Below are positions 5,507 to 13,270 of a stretch of 36,092 nt of DNA, one piece after another. Source of the stretch: Myxococcales bacterium (GTDB taxonomy: Bacteria; Myxococcota_A; UBA9042). The position numbers were made by a program, and so were the translations under genes. Every line of letters begins with the position of its first letter. Position 1 is the first letter of the stretch. The stretch lies in the NCBI GenBank assembly GCA_023954815.1, contig JAGSHB010000050.1:1-36092 (forward strand). Direction: 5' to 3'. Under the pieces are notes generated by a model. The model searched no databases. It saw only the letters and a list, made by a program, of their open reading frames with translations, and had not been told where the DNA came from.

Positions 5507-5820
5507 GATCGAATCTCCGTTCGGGTGTGGCCACGGCGCACATTGTGCAAGCGGGCCGAGGCGGCGGAAGAATAGGGATAGTGTTTGGGCATGTCGAGGC
5601 AAAAAATGCGTACCGGAGTCGAAGGGGCGAACATTGTCGTGATCAGCCCCGGCGTACATGGTCAGTCTGGCATTTCGCGGCGCCGAATAGCGTCGCTGCA
5701 ACCAGCAGGTTTCGCGCTGTCACCGCGATTTGCCGGCTGTATTTCTAGCGTTCCAGCTTGCCACTTGCGTCAGATCGCCCCCATCTCGTAGGGTTCCGGC
5801 GACTTCCTCAGGAGCCTGTG
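5507..5820. promoter_or_regulatory. Divergent intergenic region between ahcY and the lipoprotein esterase gene
   Basis: These 314 bp hold no credible gene and must carry promoters for both flanking genes. On the plus strand TTGCGT (5765-5770) and TAGGGT (5789-5794), 18 bp apart, could serve the esterase gene, and AGGAGCCTGTG precedes its ATG. On the minus strand I found no strong consensus. I looked for the conserved core of the SAH riboswitch upstream of ahcY and did not recognise it. Confidence 0.4.
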
Positions 5821-7161
5821 ATGAGACTTATGCGCCGTTCTATTTTGCTGTTGGTCCTGGCCTTAGCCGCTTGCGTGGCAACGGGTTGTGAGACCGACGA
5901 CGCTGGCCCCACCAAGACCAATACCCTGCTGCCCGACGGCGAGTACTTCGTCGGCATCAAGCTCACCCTTGCCGGTACGCAGCTCCGGATGAAAGGCAAG
6001 GTCTCCGCCGAGGGCACCAAAGAAGACGGCGGCAAGCTGCTCAAATTCGACATGTATGCGCTCGGTGAGGATTGGGTCAGCCCGACTGCGGTCGGTTCCG
6101 CATCAGACGTTGAGGTCAAGTCCGACGGCACGTTCACCATCGACTTCGGCCTCGTCACCGTGCCCGCCAAGGCCTCCCCGACCGGTTCCCCGGTCGATGC
6201 CAATCTCACGCTCGCCGGCTCGATCGACTCCGCTGCGGGCACGTTCTGCGGCACCTTGACCGGCGATATCCCAGCGTTCAAAGCCGACCTCAAGGGCTCG
6301 ACCTTCAAGGGTGTGGCGTTCGGCAAAGAGGCCGACCCGTACGAGGTGAGCTGCGGCGCGGAAGTGAAGCTCTACAAGCCCATCACGACCTGCCCAACGC
6401 TGAAAGCTGGCGCCAACGAGATGACCAGCGCCGAGCACAAGCGCACGTTCATCGTGAACCTCCCCGCGGAGGCGACGGGCACCAAGAAACTACCCGTGGT
6501 GTTCGTCTATCACGGCAATACGGGTAACGCTGCGGACATCCTCAAGGCGCTGGGCTGGCCCACGATCCAAACGGACGCCAAGGCTGACCCGTTCATCCTC
6601 GTCGCCGCAGATACCACCGCCGACGTGGGCGGCAGCAAGCCCGTGTTGGACTGGCGCTTCGGCGAGAAGGTCTTTGATATGGACAACCGCGAGCTGGTCT
6701 TTTTCGACGACATGCTCAAGTGCGTCAGCGAGCAGTACAGCGTCGACAGCGACCGCATCTACGTCAACGGGATGAGCGCTGGCGCCATGATGACCACCTT
6801 TCTGACCCTGCACCGCGGCAAGAAGCTCGCAGCAACAGCCCCGTTTTCTGGCGGCTACCTCCACGACTGGCCCAAAGACGCGCCCAAAGTGCCGATGCTG
6901 GTGACGTGGGGCGGCGACGAGGACTTCGCCTACAAGCAGAACTTCGACACGCTGGCGAAGGCCCTGATGGGTAATCTCGACGCCAACGGTTGGTTCTATG
7001 GCCTGTGCAACCACGGCACCGGTCACAAGGCACCGGGGGCGGTGGTCAAGGCGGCGTGGAGCTTCCTAAAAGCCCACAAACTCGGGGAAAAAGCGTCGCC
7101 GTTCGCCGCTGGCTTGCCTAAGGATTTCCCCGACTACTGCAAGTTGCCAGCGAAGAAGTAG
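5821..7161 (+). CDS. Lipoprotein with polyhydroxybutyrate-depolymerase/CE1-type esterase domain
   Basis: 446-residue predicted lipoprotein. The N-terminus has two Arg-containing positions, a hydrophobic run and a lipobox ending at Cys18 (LAAC) or Cys23 (ATGC). Residues about 40-200 form an uncharacterised beta-rich region. From about 205 an alpha/beta-hydrolase follows, with VVFVYHGNTGN (oxyanion region, about 226-236), the nucleophile elbow GMSAG with Ser319, an acidic GGDED near 365-369 and a His in GTGHKAP at about 402. This arrangement matches PHB depolymerase/LpqC/feruloyl-esterase-like (CE1) enzymes. The start at ATG 5821 follows AGGAG. It converges on the lytic transglycosylase gene with a 28-bp gap. 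The ester substrate is unknown; the protein probably sits on the outer membrane or in the periplasm. Confidence 0.82.
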   Translation: MRLMRRSILLLVLALAACVATGCETDDAGPTKTNTLLPDGEYFVGIKLTLAGTQLRMKGKVSAEGTKEDGGKLLKFDMYALGEDWVSPTAVGSASDVEVKSDGTFTIDFGLVTVPAKASPTGSPVDANLTLAGSIDSAAGTFCGTLTGDIPAFKADLKGSTFKGVAFGKEADPYEVSCGAEVKLYKPITTCPTLKAGANEMTSAEHKRTFIVNLPAEATGTKKLPVVFVYHGNTGNAADILKALGWPTIQTDAKADPFILVAADTTADVGGSKPVLDWRFGEKVFDMDNRELVFFDDMLKCVSEQYSVDSDRIYVNGMSAGAMMTTFLTLHRGKKLAATAPFSGGYLHDWPKDAPKVPMLVTWGGDEDFAYKQNFDTLAKALMGNLDANGWFYGLCNHGTGHKAPGAVVKAAWSFLKAHKLGEKASPFAAGLPKDFPDYCKLPAKK

Positions 7162-7189: not shown

Positions 7190-9442
7190 TCAATAGTCTG
7201 GGTCTTTGAGCCACTCCGCTTTCCAAGTACGCAGCAGCAACTGCTCACGTAGCTCCGCGGCGCGTTTGGGCTTTTCGTAGATAGCGAGATAGCGCAGGAA
7301 GTGACCGATCACCATGCGCACGTAGTTGCGCGCCTGATGTGTGCTCAGGTCGTCGATCATGACGTCGTAATCCTGGCCCTTGGTCTGCCGCATGTGGTGC
7401 TCCAGGAGCATCGGGCCGCCGTTGTAGCTGCAAATGGCGAACGGCAGCTGCCCGTGAAACTTGCGATACAACGCGCCGAGATACTGCGTGCCCCACTGGA
7501 TGTTGTAGCTCGGCCGCATGAGCATCCACAGTTGGTAGTCGTCCTTTTTCTCCGCCGCCAGCCGCCGAGCGGTCCGGTCGAGCAGCTCCAGCAAGCCATA
7601 AGCCGGCGCATTACTGATCATCCACGGCTTGTAGCGGCTCTCTTGCAGCATGTGGGCGTAGACCATCCACTCGGGTGCACCGTATTTCTTGGCCCAGTAG
7701 GTCACGTGGGTGTGGTAGGCGCGTGGGTAGATACCCCGCCACTTGTGCACCGTCGCCTTGGTTGGCCATTTGCGCAGATCTTTTCGCCACTTGTAGTAGG
7801 AGCGGCCGCGATCGGTCCAAAAGTCCTCGAGCTCATCGGACAGATCGCTGATCAGCTGCTTGGTGCGCTCCTTGCCCAGCTGCCGATGGAGACGGGGCTG
7901 CTGGGCCTTCAGCACCTCGCGCAACGTGTCGTACTCGCCCATGTGGGCGGCCAGTCGCAATCGAGCGACGGCCCCCTTCTTGGGCAGACCACGAAAAGGC
8001 GCCCGGGCGCGGAACGGCACACGGGACAGATCCGGCATCTTCGGCAGTTTGCGAGCCAGCCCCATCTTGCGCAGGTGCTGCTCGGCCATGCCTGAGTAGT
8101 AGTTCAGCGGCTGGTCCCAGACGAGCTTGCGCCACACCTCTGCGGCCTGCTTCTTGCGACCGAGCTTCTCCAGGGCCTTACCCGTCCAGTAGCGGGCTTT
8201 GCCACCGACCAGGGGGTTCCACGAACGCATCAGCGGCTTGAACAGCTTGATGGACTCTTCGTACTTGCCACCCAGGTACGTCCAATAACCGACGAACCAC
8301 CAGTACTTGCCCCAGTCGTAGCCCTTGCGATGGCGCTCCAAGAAGGGTTTGTACTCCTCAGCCGCCCGCAGCGGTTTCCCCCAGGCACGAATGGCCCGGC
8401 AGCGGTCGTACATCGCCTCGTTGACCCGCCGCATCTTCTGGCCCTTGTAGCGCTTGAGCCACAGATCGAAGGCCTTGATGCCGTCGGCGTGACGCCCCAC
8501 TTTGGCGAGCGCGATGCCATAGCTCGACAGGGCAAACATCGCGTACGGCGCCCCCTCGACGATGGCCGCTTCGAAGTACTTCACGGAGTTCGGGTAGTCG
8601 TCGCGCAGGCGCTCAGAGCCGATTTTTCCGAGGAAATAGCCCACATCCCTCTTATGCAGCCCCTTGTTCCAGAGGTAGAGCGACTCCACCCGACAGCGTT
8701 CGTAGTCCCGCTTCGCAAAGAGCACTTCCGCCCGCTTGAGACGCTCGGCATCGGACAAACTCGACAGCTTGACGTGGGCCAGGGCTTGGTCGATGAGCGC
8801 GCTCTCCGGGTGCACCATCAGCAGCTTCTTCCACAAGGCGTGAGCGCGTTTGTTGTCGCCGACCTTGCGTAAGAGGCGAGCGGCACGCGCCAGCAGCTCA
8901 TCTTGCGGCAGATGCAGTCGACTCTTGCCGTAGAGCTGCAAACACGCCTCGGCAGCGGCACGCGGCGGCCCGACCTGCTCATACAAACGGGCCCAGACGA
9001 TGTCCGCCTGCGCCCAGCGGAACTTCGGCGCCGCCTTCCGAAGCGCGGTGAGCTTCTTGAACGCGGCGGCTTTCTTGCCCTCGGCCAACAGCACCTCGAC
9101 CTCGGCAAATCGCCAGGCAGGCCCGTAGACGCCCTTCACCTTGGCGGCGAGCTTGAGGGCCTTTCGTGCGCCTGGGCCGTCTTTCAGGGCAGCACGCGCC
9201 CGCGCCAGCACATACGCGGCGGGTGCGCGGGCGGATTTGCCGACCCGCTGCTTTCCTTCAACCAGCGGCGTCAACGCGTCAGCAGCCTCCTGCCATGCGC
9301 TGACGCGAAACAGCTGAACACCGCTCCGCACGCGCTGCCAATCTCCCGCCTGGGCGGGCACGATCGCAGCCATGAGCCCCCCGACCACGAGCAGTCGGAT
9401 GAGCGGGAGAAGACGAAGGGTCTGAACATGGATAGCCAGCAC
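7190..9442 (-). CDS. Slt70-like soluble lytic murein transglycosylase
   Basis: Periplasmic peptidoglycan lytic transglycosylase of 750 residues. I chose the GTG at 9442, which has CCGGAGCACCC upstream and begins a signal peptide with a hydrophobic run ending in VPAQA before GDWQ; the frame stays open further upstream without a start signal. The large N-terminal part is a helical superhelix of TPR/HAT-like repeats, as in the U-domain of Slt70. The C-terminal SLT domain shows the catalytic Glu in HMLQESRY, the helix AYGLLEL (most relatives have GLMQ), CSYNGGP and RNYVRMV. The enzyme cleaves glycan strands with 1,6-anhydro-MurNAc formation. The substitution in the GLMQ-type motif is mild. The gene is single and divergent from the MC1 gene. 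Confidence 0.9.
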   Translation of the reverse strand: MLAIHVQTLRLLPLIRLLVVGGLMAAIVPAQAGDWQRVRSGVQLFRVSAWQEAADALTPLVEGKQRVGKSARAPAAYVLARARAALKDGPGARKALKLAAKVKGVYGPAWRFAEVEVLLAEGKKAAAFKKLTALRKAAPKFRWAQADIVWARLYEQVGPPRAAAEACLQLYGKSRLHLPQDELLARAARLLRKVGDNKRAHALWKKLLMVHPESALIDQALAHVKLSSLSDAERLKRAEVLFAKRDYERCRVESLYLWNKGLHKRDVGYFLGKIGSERLRDDYPNSVKYFEAAIVEGAPYAMFALSSYGIALAKVGRHADGIKAFDLWLKRYKGQKMRRVNEAMYDRCRAIRAWGKPLRAAEEYKPFLERHRKGYDWGKYWWFVGYWTYLGGKYEESIKLFKPLMRSWNPLVGGKARYWTGKALEKLGRKKQAAEVWRKLVWDQPLNYYSGMAEQHLRKMGLARKLPKMPDLSRVPFRARAPFRGLPKKGAVARLRLAAHMGEYDTLREVLKAQQPRLHRQLGKERTKQLISDLSDELEDFWTDRGRSYYKWRKDLRKWPTKATVHKWRGIYPRAYHTHVTYWAKKYGAPEWMVYAHMLQESRYKPWMISNAPAYGLLELLDRTARRLAAEKKDDYQLWMLMRPSYNIQWGTQYLGALYRKFHGQLPFAICSYNGGPMLLEHHMRQTKGQDYDVMIDDLSTHQARNYVRMVIGHFLRYLAIYEKPKRAAELREQLLLRTWKAEWLKDPDY

Positions 9443-9878
9443 GGGTGCTCCGGGGCAGGTAAGAGTTGAGAGCCTACCACCGCCTCCCAGACCCTCCAGA
9501 AAGGCGCAAAGTCGGCCACTGAGCCCAAGTTTGATCCCCAAAGGGCCCAGGTTTGATCCCGAAAAATGCGCATCGGGACGAATATTTTTCAAGACGCGCC
9601 AAACCTCCTTGATATTCAAAGGGTTGTTTGAGATTTCAATGTTTTCGGACAGTTACAAGTCAAGCCCTGCCAAAACGAACCGGCAAGTACCCATGCTCGT
9701 TTCACTTTTTCGACGCAGTTGCGCGTTTTTGGCGCATTAGAAACTTGCATCCAGCCCAAAAGGGTCGCATACACAATATAACTACGTTCGGAAAGGCACC
9801 TGCGCCGCCTTACACCCGCCCCGGGAGGGCGTCGCTGGTGAATTGTGCGACTTATTGTCGCGAAGGGAGAGCATTGTC
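9443..9878. promoter_or_regulatory. AT-richer divergent intergenic region upstream of the MC1-like gene
   Basis: This 436-bp region lies between divergent genes, is visibly richer in A and T than its surroundings and has no convincing ORF. It contains a pair of 20-bp direct repeats (9523-9542 and 9545-9564), a -10-like TATAAC at 9777-9782 without a clear -35 element, and a small GCGAC/GTCGC hairpin (9847-9861) just before the GGGAGA ribosome binding site of the MC1-like gene. It probably carries the control elements of the MC1-like gene and of the transglycosylase gene. Confidence 0.5.
9523..9564. repeat. Pair of 20-bp direct repeats with 22-bp period
   Basis: Two copies of GCCCAAGTTTGATCCCCAAA / GCCCAGGTTTGATCCCGAAA match at 18 of 20 positions, start to start 22 bp apart, about two helical turns. 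Two in-phase copies are typical of tandem operator sites for one regulator. They lie 80 bp upstream of the lytic transglycosylase start and about 315 bp upstream of the MC1-like gene. Confidence 0.7.
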
Positions 9879-10151
9879 ATGGCAGATCGTCCAAAGAAAA
9901 ATTTTGTGCTGATGCAGGACGGCAAAGACACCGACATCGTCTTCGCCAATCGCCAACCTCGTGGTGCTGCACTCAAGGCAGCGAGCCGCGGCCACACCGA
10001 GATCCGTCTGCGTGAGCGCGGCACCAAGCGCGTGCATGTGTTCAAGGGATGGCGTGAGCATGTGGACGCCCCAGCGAAGCGCCCCTCCTGGCTCCCGGAC
10101 AAAGTCTGGAAGGCCAAGGTCAAGAAGCAGGGTGTCGAGCACCTCAGCTAG
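9879..10151 (+). CDS. MC1-type (archaeal-like) chromosomal architectural protein
   Basis: A 90-residue basic protein that aligns almost end to end with archaeal non-histone chromosomal protein MC1 (Methanosarcina, haloarchaea), a monomer that bends DNA sharply. Shared blocks, compared from memory, are KNFVLMQDG (8-15), RQPRGAALKAASRG (25-38), IRLRERGTKRVHVFKGW (42-58), VDAPAKRPSWLPDK (62-75) and a Lys-rich tail. The two Trp (58 and 71) correspond to the conserved MC1 tryptophans, one of which lies in the DNA-contacting arm. The loop after residue 38 is several residues shorter than in Methanosarcina MC1. The start at ATG 9879 follows GGGAGA. It is monocistronic, with a strong terminator 22 bp downstream, as expected for an abundant DNA-binding protein. 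MC1 in bacteria is unusual and transfer from archaea is a reasonable inference. Confidence 0.88.
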   Translation: MADRPKKNFVLMQDGKDTDIVFANRQPRGAALKAASRGHTEIRLRERGTKRVHVFKGWREHVDAPAKRPSWLPDKVWKAKVKKQGVEHLS

Positions 10152-10172
10152 GCCTCTCCCCGCAAGCAACCC

Positions 10173-10211
10173 GAAGCCCCCATTGCGCAGCGATGGGGGC
10201 TTCGTCGTTTT
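10173..10211 (+). terminator. Rho-independent terminator of the MC1-like gene
   Basis: A perfect 11-bp stem (GAAGCCCCCAT at 10173-10183 pairing with ATGGGGGCTTC at 10193-10203) around a 9-nt loop is followed by GTCGTTTTGG. It begins 22 bp after the MC1-like stop codon and isolates that gene from lepA. Confidence 0.88.
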
Positions 10212-12157: not shown

Positions 12158-13270
12158 TTGGATATCGCGGCACACCTCGTTGTTTTTGTCGCTGGTCTCG
12201 CCGCGCTGATCGTTGGCGGTGATGGGCTTGTGCGCGGCGCAGCGGCCATTGCGCGGACCCTCGGCATCTCACCGCTAGTCGTTGGGCTCACGGTCGTGGC
12301 TTTTGGCACGTCGGCGCCCGAGCTGGCGGTCAGCCTCACCAGTGGGCTGTCGGACTATGCGGACCTCGCGCTCGGCAATGTGGTCGGTTCGAACATCTTC
12401 AACATCCTGCTCATTTTGGGTATCGCCGCCCTGCTCAACCCGCTCAAGGTCGAGCGGCAGCTGGTTCGTTTCGACATCCCGGTGATGATCGCCTCGGCCA
12501 TCTTGCTGACGGTGCTCTCGCTCGACGGCGTCATCTCCCGCGTGGAGGGCGCTATCTTGGCCGCGCTGCTCGTTGGCTACATCACGACGACGGTGATCAC
12601 GGCCCGTAAAGCCAAGCAGAACGGAGCCACGCGCGAGGCTGAGGAAGCTGAAGAGGCCGCCTTGGAGCGCATGGATTGGATGCTCAGCGGTGTGGCCTTT
12701 GTGCTGACCGGTGTGGCGCTCGCTGCCGAGCGTTTGGACATGGGCATAGGCCTGGCGTTGGCGGGTTCGCTCGTCGCCTATCTCGTGGCCGCAACGACCG
12801 CCGGCAAGCGTCCGGGCCACCTGCCGCTCAACGGCGCGATGCTGGTTTTTGCCATTGGCGCAGTGGCCCTCTCCGCCCGTTGCATGGTCGAAGGTGCAGT
12901 GGGAATCGCGCGGATGTTCGATATCTCAGAAGCCGTCATTGGCCTGACGGTCGTGGCGGCGGGGACGTCCTTGCCTGAAGCCGTCACCACAGTGGCTGCG
13001 GGTCGCCAAGGCGAGTCGGACATCGCGATCGGCAACGTCGTCGGCTCGAACATCTTCAACGTGCTGTGCATCGTCGGCGTGACCGGATCTGTGGTTGCCC
13101 TGCCTGTGTCCGACGACCTGCTGCGCTTTGATTATGCGGTCATGGTCGCAGTGATGCTGGGGCTCTGGCCGCTGTTGTGGCTACGCAAGCGGGTCGGAGT
13201 GCCGGACGGCATCCTGATGCTGGTGGTCTTCGCCGGCTACATGGCCGTGCAGCTCGCCCGCGTGATGTAG
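12158..13270 (+). CDS. CaCA-family sodium/calcium antiporter (YrbG-like)
   Basis: Inner-membrane cation exchanger of 370 residues with about ten hydrophobic segments. It shows the internal duplication of the family: alpha-1 with AFGTSAPELAVS and GNVVGSNIFNILL, and alpha-2 with AAGTSLPEAVTT and GNVVGSNIFNVLC. The acidic residues in these motifs bind the cation. A charged cytoplasmic loop (REAEEAEEAALER) separates the halves. The start is a TTG at 12158 preceded by GGAGACTCGTC, which gives a good GGAG spacing. It likely follows lepA in the same transcript. Ca2+/Na+ exchange is the family norm; the true ion is not certain. Confidence 0.9.
   Translation: MDIAAHLVVFVAGLAALIVGGDGLVRGAAAIARTLGISPLVVGLTVVAFGTSAPELAVSLTSGLSDYADLALGNVVGSNIFNILLILGIAALLNPLKVERQLVRFDIPVMIASAILLTVLSLDGVISRVEGAILAALLVGYITTTVITARKAKQNGATREAEEAEEAALERMDWMLSGVAFVLTGVALAAERLDMGIGLALAGSLVAYLVAATTAGKRPGHLPLNGAMLVFAIGAVALSARCMVEGAVGIARMFDISEAVIGLTVVAAGTSLPEAVTTVAAGRQGESDIAIGNVVGSNIFNVLCIVGVTGSVVALPVSDDLLRFDYAVMVAVMLGLWPLLWLRKRVGVPDGILMLVVFAGYMAVQLARVM

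Follow-up and report, generated by a model that had tools for sequence, protein, structure and literature searches.

The small DNA-bending chromatin protein MC1, so far known from archaea and some giant viruses, is treated as archaeal, with viral homologues, in several papers (PMC5671483, PMC12550674, PMC7613761, PMC8999374), and one survey found the MC1 superfamily to be common only to archaea and eukaryotic viruses (PMC5671483). According to a mutational study, binding depends on Arg25 (more than 100-fold), Ile89, Gln23 and Trp74, with Pro72 and Arg71 weighing less, and the residues involved in bending are Arg25, Pro72, Trp74 and Ile89 (PMC3928310). The structure of an MC1-DNA complex adds Lys81 and Lys86 as contacts, and the sequence specificity of the MC1 proteins known so far is described as low (PMC6776556). 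The loop LP3 is absent from the DNA-contact regions named in the accessible parts of both papers (PMC3928310, PMC6776556). In marine group II (MG-II) archaea, MC1 has been noted as a probable horizontal acquisition, no source being given in the available excerpt (PMC7613761), and high transcript levels have been reported for it in an MG-IIa genome (PMC9723583). We found no report of a bacterial MC1 in a literature search that had subscription papers and database annotations outside its range, and an earlier mention may exist.

The stretch of DNA analysed here, hereafter the window, is a 36,092-nucleotide contig of a Myxococcales bacterium. Its forward strand carries an ORF at 9,879 to 10,151 (ATG at 9,879, TAG at 10,149 to 10,151) whose 90-amino acid product has a predicted pI of 10.81, and is therefore strongly basic and of the length expected of MC1. 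The original prediction that this ORF encodes MC1 is borne out by a match to PF05854 with E=4e-30 and 104.4 bits, against a gathering cut-off of 23 bits, spanning profile positions 2 to 95 of 96. Residues 4 to 92 of the MC1 structure PDB 1t23 also match (E=3.7e-24), and NCBIfam gave no match for the protein. The 6.44 Mb source genome, which is 97% complete, contains this single MC1 copy. Judged from its sequence, the ORF is a genuine MC1 protein, and it belongs to a new bacterial branch of the known family.

An AlphaFold model of the window protein (pLDDT 91) has the element order of MC1, beta1-beta2-alpha-beta3-beta4-beta5, with predicted strands at residues 7-13, 16-24, 41-46, 51-63 and 75-88 and a helix at 27-36, in a pseudo-barrel fold with a long beta4-beta5 arm. 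The top Foldseek match of this model in the PDB is 1t23 (probability 1.00, 53% identity), and the remaining matches listed all have probabilities of 0.23 or below. The TM-score against the 1t23 NMR model is modest, at 0.49, but rank and probability are still unambiguous. On the predicted structure, MC1 is the sole convincing PDB match.

The residues on which MC1 function depends are largely in place. By alignment, Arg25, Ile89, Gln23, Trp74, Pro72, Arg71, Lys81 and Lys86 of MC1 correspond to R28, V86, Q26, W71, P69, R68, K78 and K83 of the window protein, respectively. Across 16 bacterial and archaeal sequences Q26, R28, P69, W71 and K83 are invariant, and these include the equivalents of the bending residues Arg25, Pro72 and Trp74; K78 is nearly invariant. 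MC1 Ile89 is replaced by Val, and two further DNA-contacting residues of MC1, Gln26 and Arg88, are both Gly. Both tryptophans had been described as conserved, and this holds for W71, the counterpart of the intercalating Trp74, but not for W58, which is Gly or Lys in several relatives. The segment RQPRGAALKAA had been taken for an archaeal MC1 block; however, Methanosarcina reads QPRQAALKxA, and the G marks a subfamily shared by Myxococcota and MG-II archaea, such that the QPRG signature is not a bacterial hallmark. The shortened loop of the window protein is LP3 (Gly35 to Pro42 in MC1), which has six residues fewer. Its proposed role as the mark of a bacterial subfamily does not survive comparison, since the short loop is common to MG-II archaea and several Halobacteriota lineages.

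MC1 is a resident of the chromosomes of a family of uncultured Myxococcota-like bacteria, is old there, and is under constraint. A single-copy MC1 gene is present in 19 of the 22 genomes of the family, and the three genomes that lack it are 67 to 89% complete. The gene slt adjoins MC1 in 18 of the 19 carriers, the exception (L122) having MC1 at a contig end, and lepA lies 3' of MC1 in 12 of the 19. Near family-wide presence and conserved synteny place the acquisition of MC1 before the radiation of the family. Within-genus and within-family pairs give dN/dS values of 0.016 to 0.20, indicating strong purifying selection, although ratios for pairs with dS above 1 are rough. All genomes with named records are metagenome-assembled genomes (MAGs) and MC1 is elsewhere an archaeal hallmark, so one might suspect an assembly chimera or archaeal contamination. 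This suspicion is refuted by the slt-MC1 synteny, which recurs in many independent MAGs and on contigs of up to 371 kb. Also against it, bacterial genes flank MC1 on both sides, and the window protein is 66 to 96% identical to other bacterial copies versus 52 to 56% to those of Methanosarcinaceae. We therefore consider an artefact to have almost no chance of being correct, and the predicted location in a bacterial chromosome stands. One of our searches for relatives used exact peptide patterns of the window protein, and thus reaches close relatives only. Carriage by mobile elements was also considered and set aside: IMG/VR yielded no relative with either the single protein or an alignment, none was present among 50,697 phage records, and plasmid relatives were only haloarchaeal.

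The neighbouring genes in the window are bacterial, as had been claimed. A lytic transglycosylase gene (SLT, PF01464, with TPR; 7,190 to 9,619, reverse strand) is divergent from MC1 and is kept as its neighbour family-wide. On the forward strand, MC1 is followed by lepA (EF4; PF06421; 10,325 to 12,121) and, beyond it, a Na/Ca exchanger gene (12,158 to 13,270). A 467-amino acid ORF at 5,758 to 7,161 has no Pfam match at 1e-5 and occurs near slt in several family members; by eye, its GMSAG motif suggests an esterase/depolymerase-like alpha/beta hydrolase.

The region upstream of MC1 is AT-rich, with a GC content of 0.42 to 0.49 versus about 0.62, and includes a candidate sigma70-like promoter, TTGCAT-N17-CATACA, at 9,745 to 9,773 (forward strand). 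This element is conserved in the window and in L122 and L123, the loci of the other two MC1-carrying species of the genus; the match to the promoter consensus was judged by eye on the upstream alignment of these three, and was missed by an automatic scan. The aligned sequences read TTGC(A/G)T-N17-CATACA, and the second hexamer of the third species differs only in its flank. Automatic promoter predictions were set aside because they overlap the start codon or fall 3' of the MC1 gene. The candidate promoter would give a 5' UTR of about 100 nucleotides. In a second genus, a similar conserved block, ACTTGCGC ... GGTACATA, is found upstream of MC1. Between the promoter and the putative Shine-Dalgarno sequence (AGGGAG, 9,864 to 9,869, forward strand, 9 nucleotides 5' of the ATG; a GGGAG-like motif precedes MC1 in most relatives) is an inverted repeat, GCGAC-N5-GTCGC, at 9,847 to 9,861 (forward strand), which may be an operator or a 5'-UTR hairpin for translational control. 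Its stem is identical and its loop variable across three species of the genus, with weak single-sequence shuffle results (p = 0.21, 0.03 and 0.11). Hairpins of differing sequence occur upstream of MC1 in many relatives. We do not claim a family-wide conserved 5' hairpin, as these hairpins differ in where they lie and how strong they are, and most of the single-sequence shuffle tests fall short of significance.

Downstream of MC1, a predicted intrinsic terminator at 10,172 to 10,204 (forward strand) consists of a 15-bp stem followed by TCGTTTT, and a GC-rich hairpin with a T-run was seen by eye 3' of MC1 in L122, L123, L139 and L140 also. Because of its candidate promoter and terminator, MC1 probably forms its own transcription unit, which agrees with the proposal of a monocistronic gene with its own AT-rich control region and strong terminator.

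HU-family genes are present in all 53 genomes searched, including the source genome, which has four matches. MC1 had been suggested to replace or supplement HU; replacement is ruled out by these genes, and supplementation is supported by them. An abundant nucleoid protein had also been proposed, but codon usage gives no positive support. With ribosomal and elongation-factor genes of the source genome as reference, the codon adaptation index (CAI) of MC1 is 0.661, versus 0.78 to 0.82 for three HU-family genes and 0.58 to 0.68 for neighbouring genes. This value is inside the 5-95% ranges of both ribosomal-gene (0.647 to 0.800) and neighbour (0.550 to 0.731) subsamples, and since 90 codons give a noisy CAI, high expression is neither proven nor excluded.

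MC1 is very probably an auxiliary nucleoid-associated, DNA-bending protein that works beside HU in the Myxococcota-like family. What we observed is homology to MC1, a matching predicted fold, conserved residues, purifying selection, shared synteny, co-occurrence with HU and the signs of a separate transcription unit; that bacterial MC1 bends DNA in the living cell, binds across the chromosome, is abundant or plays this physiological role would follow only by inference. Weighing against the reading are the two Gly substitutions at DNA-contacting positions, a codon adaptation like that of ordinary neighbours, and the modest TM-score. In the proposed mechanism, the small basic monomer would bind DNA with little sequence specificity, with R28 (MC1 R25) and Q26 serving to neutralise the groove as it closes. 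Insertion or intercalation in the minor groove would fall to two residues on the beta4-beta5 arm, P69 and W71 (MC1 P72 and W74), and K78, K82/K83 and V86 (MC1 K81, K85/K86 and I89) would make a second contact. The DNA would in this way be bent into a V-turn, and MC1 would serve alongside HU as an architectural or DNA-protecting protein. It is also conceivable, although rather unlikely, that this homologue was kept for a local or conditional role, at a few promoters or in protecting the DNA of resting cells. Its single copy, its modest codon adaptation, the several HU-family genes already in the genome and the genus-conserved inverted repeat, which could mean tight control, are consistent with such specialization. 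However, a local role fits poorly with the low sequence specificity reported for known MC1 proteins (PMC6776556), and with a DNA-contact surface that is kept nearly whole rather than in one part.

Contrary to what surveys imply, MC1 is not confined to archaea among cellular organisms, as it was detected in 23 of the 52 genomes belonging to the bacterial class; this bears on the taxonomic range of the family and not on what defines its fold. In a sample of the phylum, MC1 was detected in 31 of 379 genomes, spread over six family codes; there were 32 matches, one of which was spurious (G233, E=8.8e-5, a low-complexity Arg/Pro-rich stretch). Although the locus is conserved within the family, the gene has a patchy distribution in the rest of the phylum, where it lies at unrelated loci, and no common neighbour gene was found close to MC1 between families. 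This pattern is consistent with MC1 having moved between families as a single gene and then been inherited vertically, and gene-order decay could contribute. Among L156-L170, some Halobacteriota genomes of ~3 Mb encode two or three paralogous short-loop MC1 proteins that are extended at the C terminus, and a different extended form occurs in several genomes of ~1 Mb.

In a tree of 101 sequences, Myxococcota and MG-II proteins form one clade (99/95), separate from Methanosarcinaceae, haloarchaea and other short-loop Halobacteriota. Halobacteriota commonly carry MC1, with 82 of 197 genomes positive, so a recent transfer into the family from a methanogen or haloarchaeon might be imagined, but this is highly improbable given that clade's separation from both groups and the occurrence of MC1, with conserved synteny, through most of the family. 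In a pruned tree, MG-II sequences are monophyletic (97/84) and join a bacterial subset whose proteins start with KKYFV (98/93). When rooted on other archaea, MG-II MC1 is nested inside bacterial diversity, and therefore may come from bacteria. The MG-II copies are truly archaeal, since one is on a 2.06 Mb contig. The Poseidoniales MAG UWMA-0350 has two near-identical MC1 genes on two contigs (L030, 6,007 to 6,270, and L031, from 6,007, whose ORF runs off the contig), in both of which LRER is followed by an unusual GGGG stretch; the pair may come from different strains that were binned together. Forcing bacterial monophyly lowers the log-likelihood by 7 to 8 units, and the AU test does not reject it (p 0.32 and 0.20). 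With this result and an alignment of 91 columns, any direction of transfer is tentative. The archaea-to-bacteria direction that the original prediction implied is thus not established, and for the link between MG-II and Myxococcota the tree leans the opposite way. Tentatively, MC1, archaeal in its earlier history, may have passed to MG-II from Myxococcota-like bacteria, moving between families and domains as a single gene that then became fixed.

Among known systems, Mimivirus gp275 is reported to be an MC1-like DNA-condensing protein outside archaea (cited in PMC12550674), but it is viral, and is likened here by description, not by sequence. Bacterial HU/IHF proteins are functional analogues, described in PMC6776556 as small basic minor-groove benders acting on the concave side. 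They share neither fold nor sequence with MC1, HU forms a dimer, and HU is present in all the genomes searched; the bacterial MC1 branch offers a natural test of whether two unrelated DNA benders split the work within one nucleoid. MC1 of Methanosarcina thermophila CHTI55 (PDB 1t23, 2khl, 2nbj) resembles the window protein in predicted fold, length class and basic pI, and its Q23, R25, K30, R71, P72, W74, K81, K85 and K86 are all retained. The window protein differs in its LP3, six residues shorter, in the changes of Q26 and R88 to Gly, I89 to Val and M75 to Leu (~53% identity overall), and in having as host a bacterium that also has HU. MG-II (Poseidoniia) MC1 shares with the window protein its short loop, QPRG, ~62-70% identity and clade, but differs in its archaeal host, its KKYFVLM start and its genomic locus. 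This close link with MG-II archaea is the most interesting point, and the bacterial branch supplies the missing relatives of MG-II MC1.
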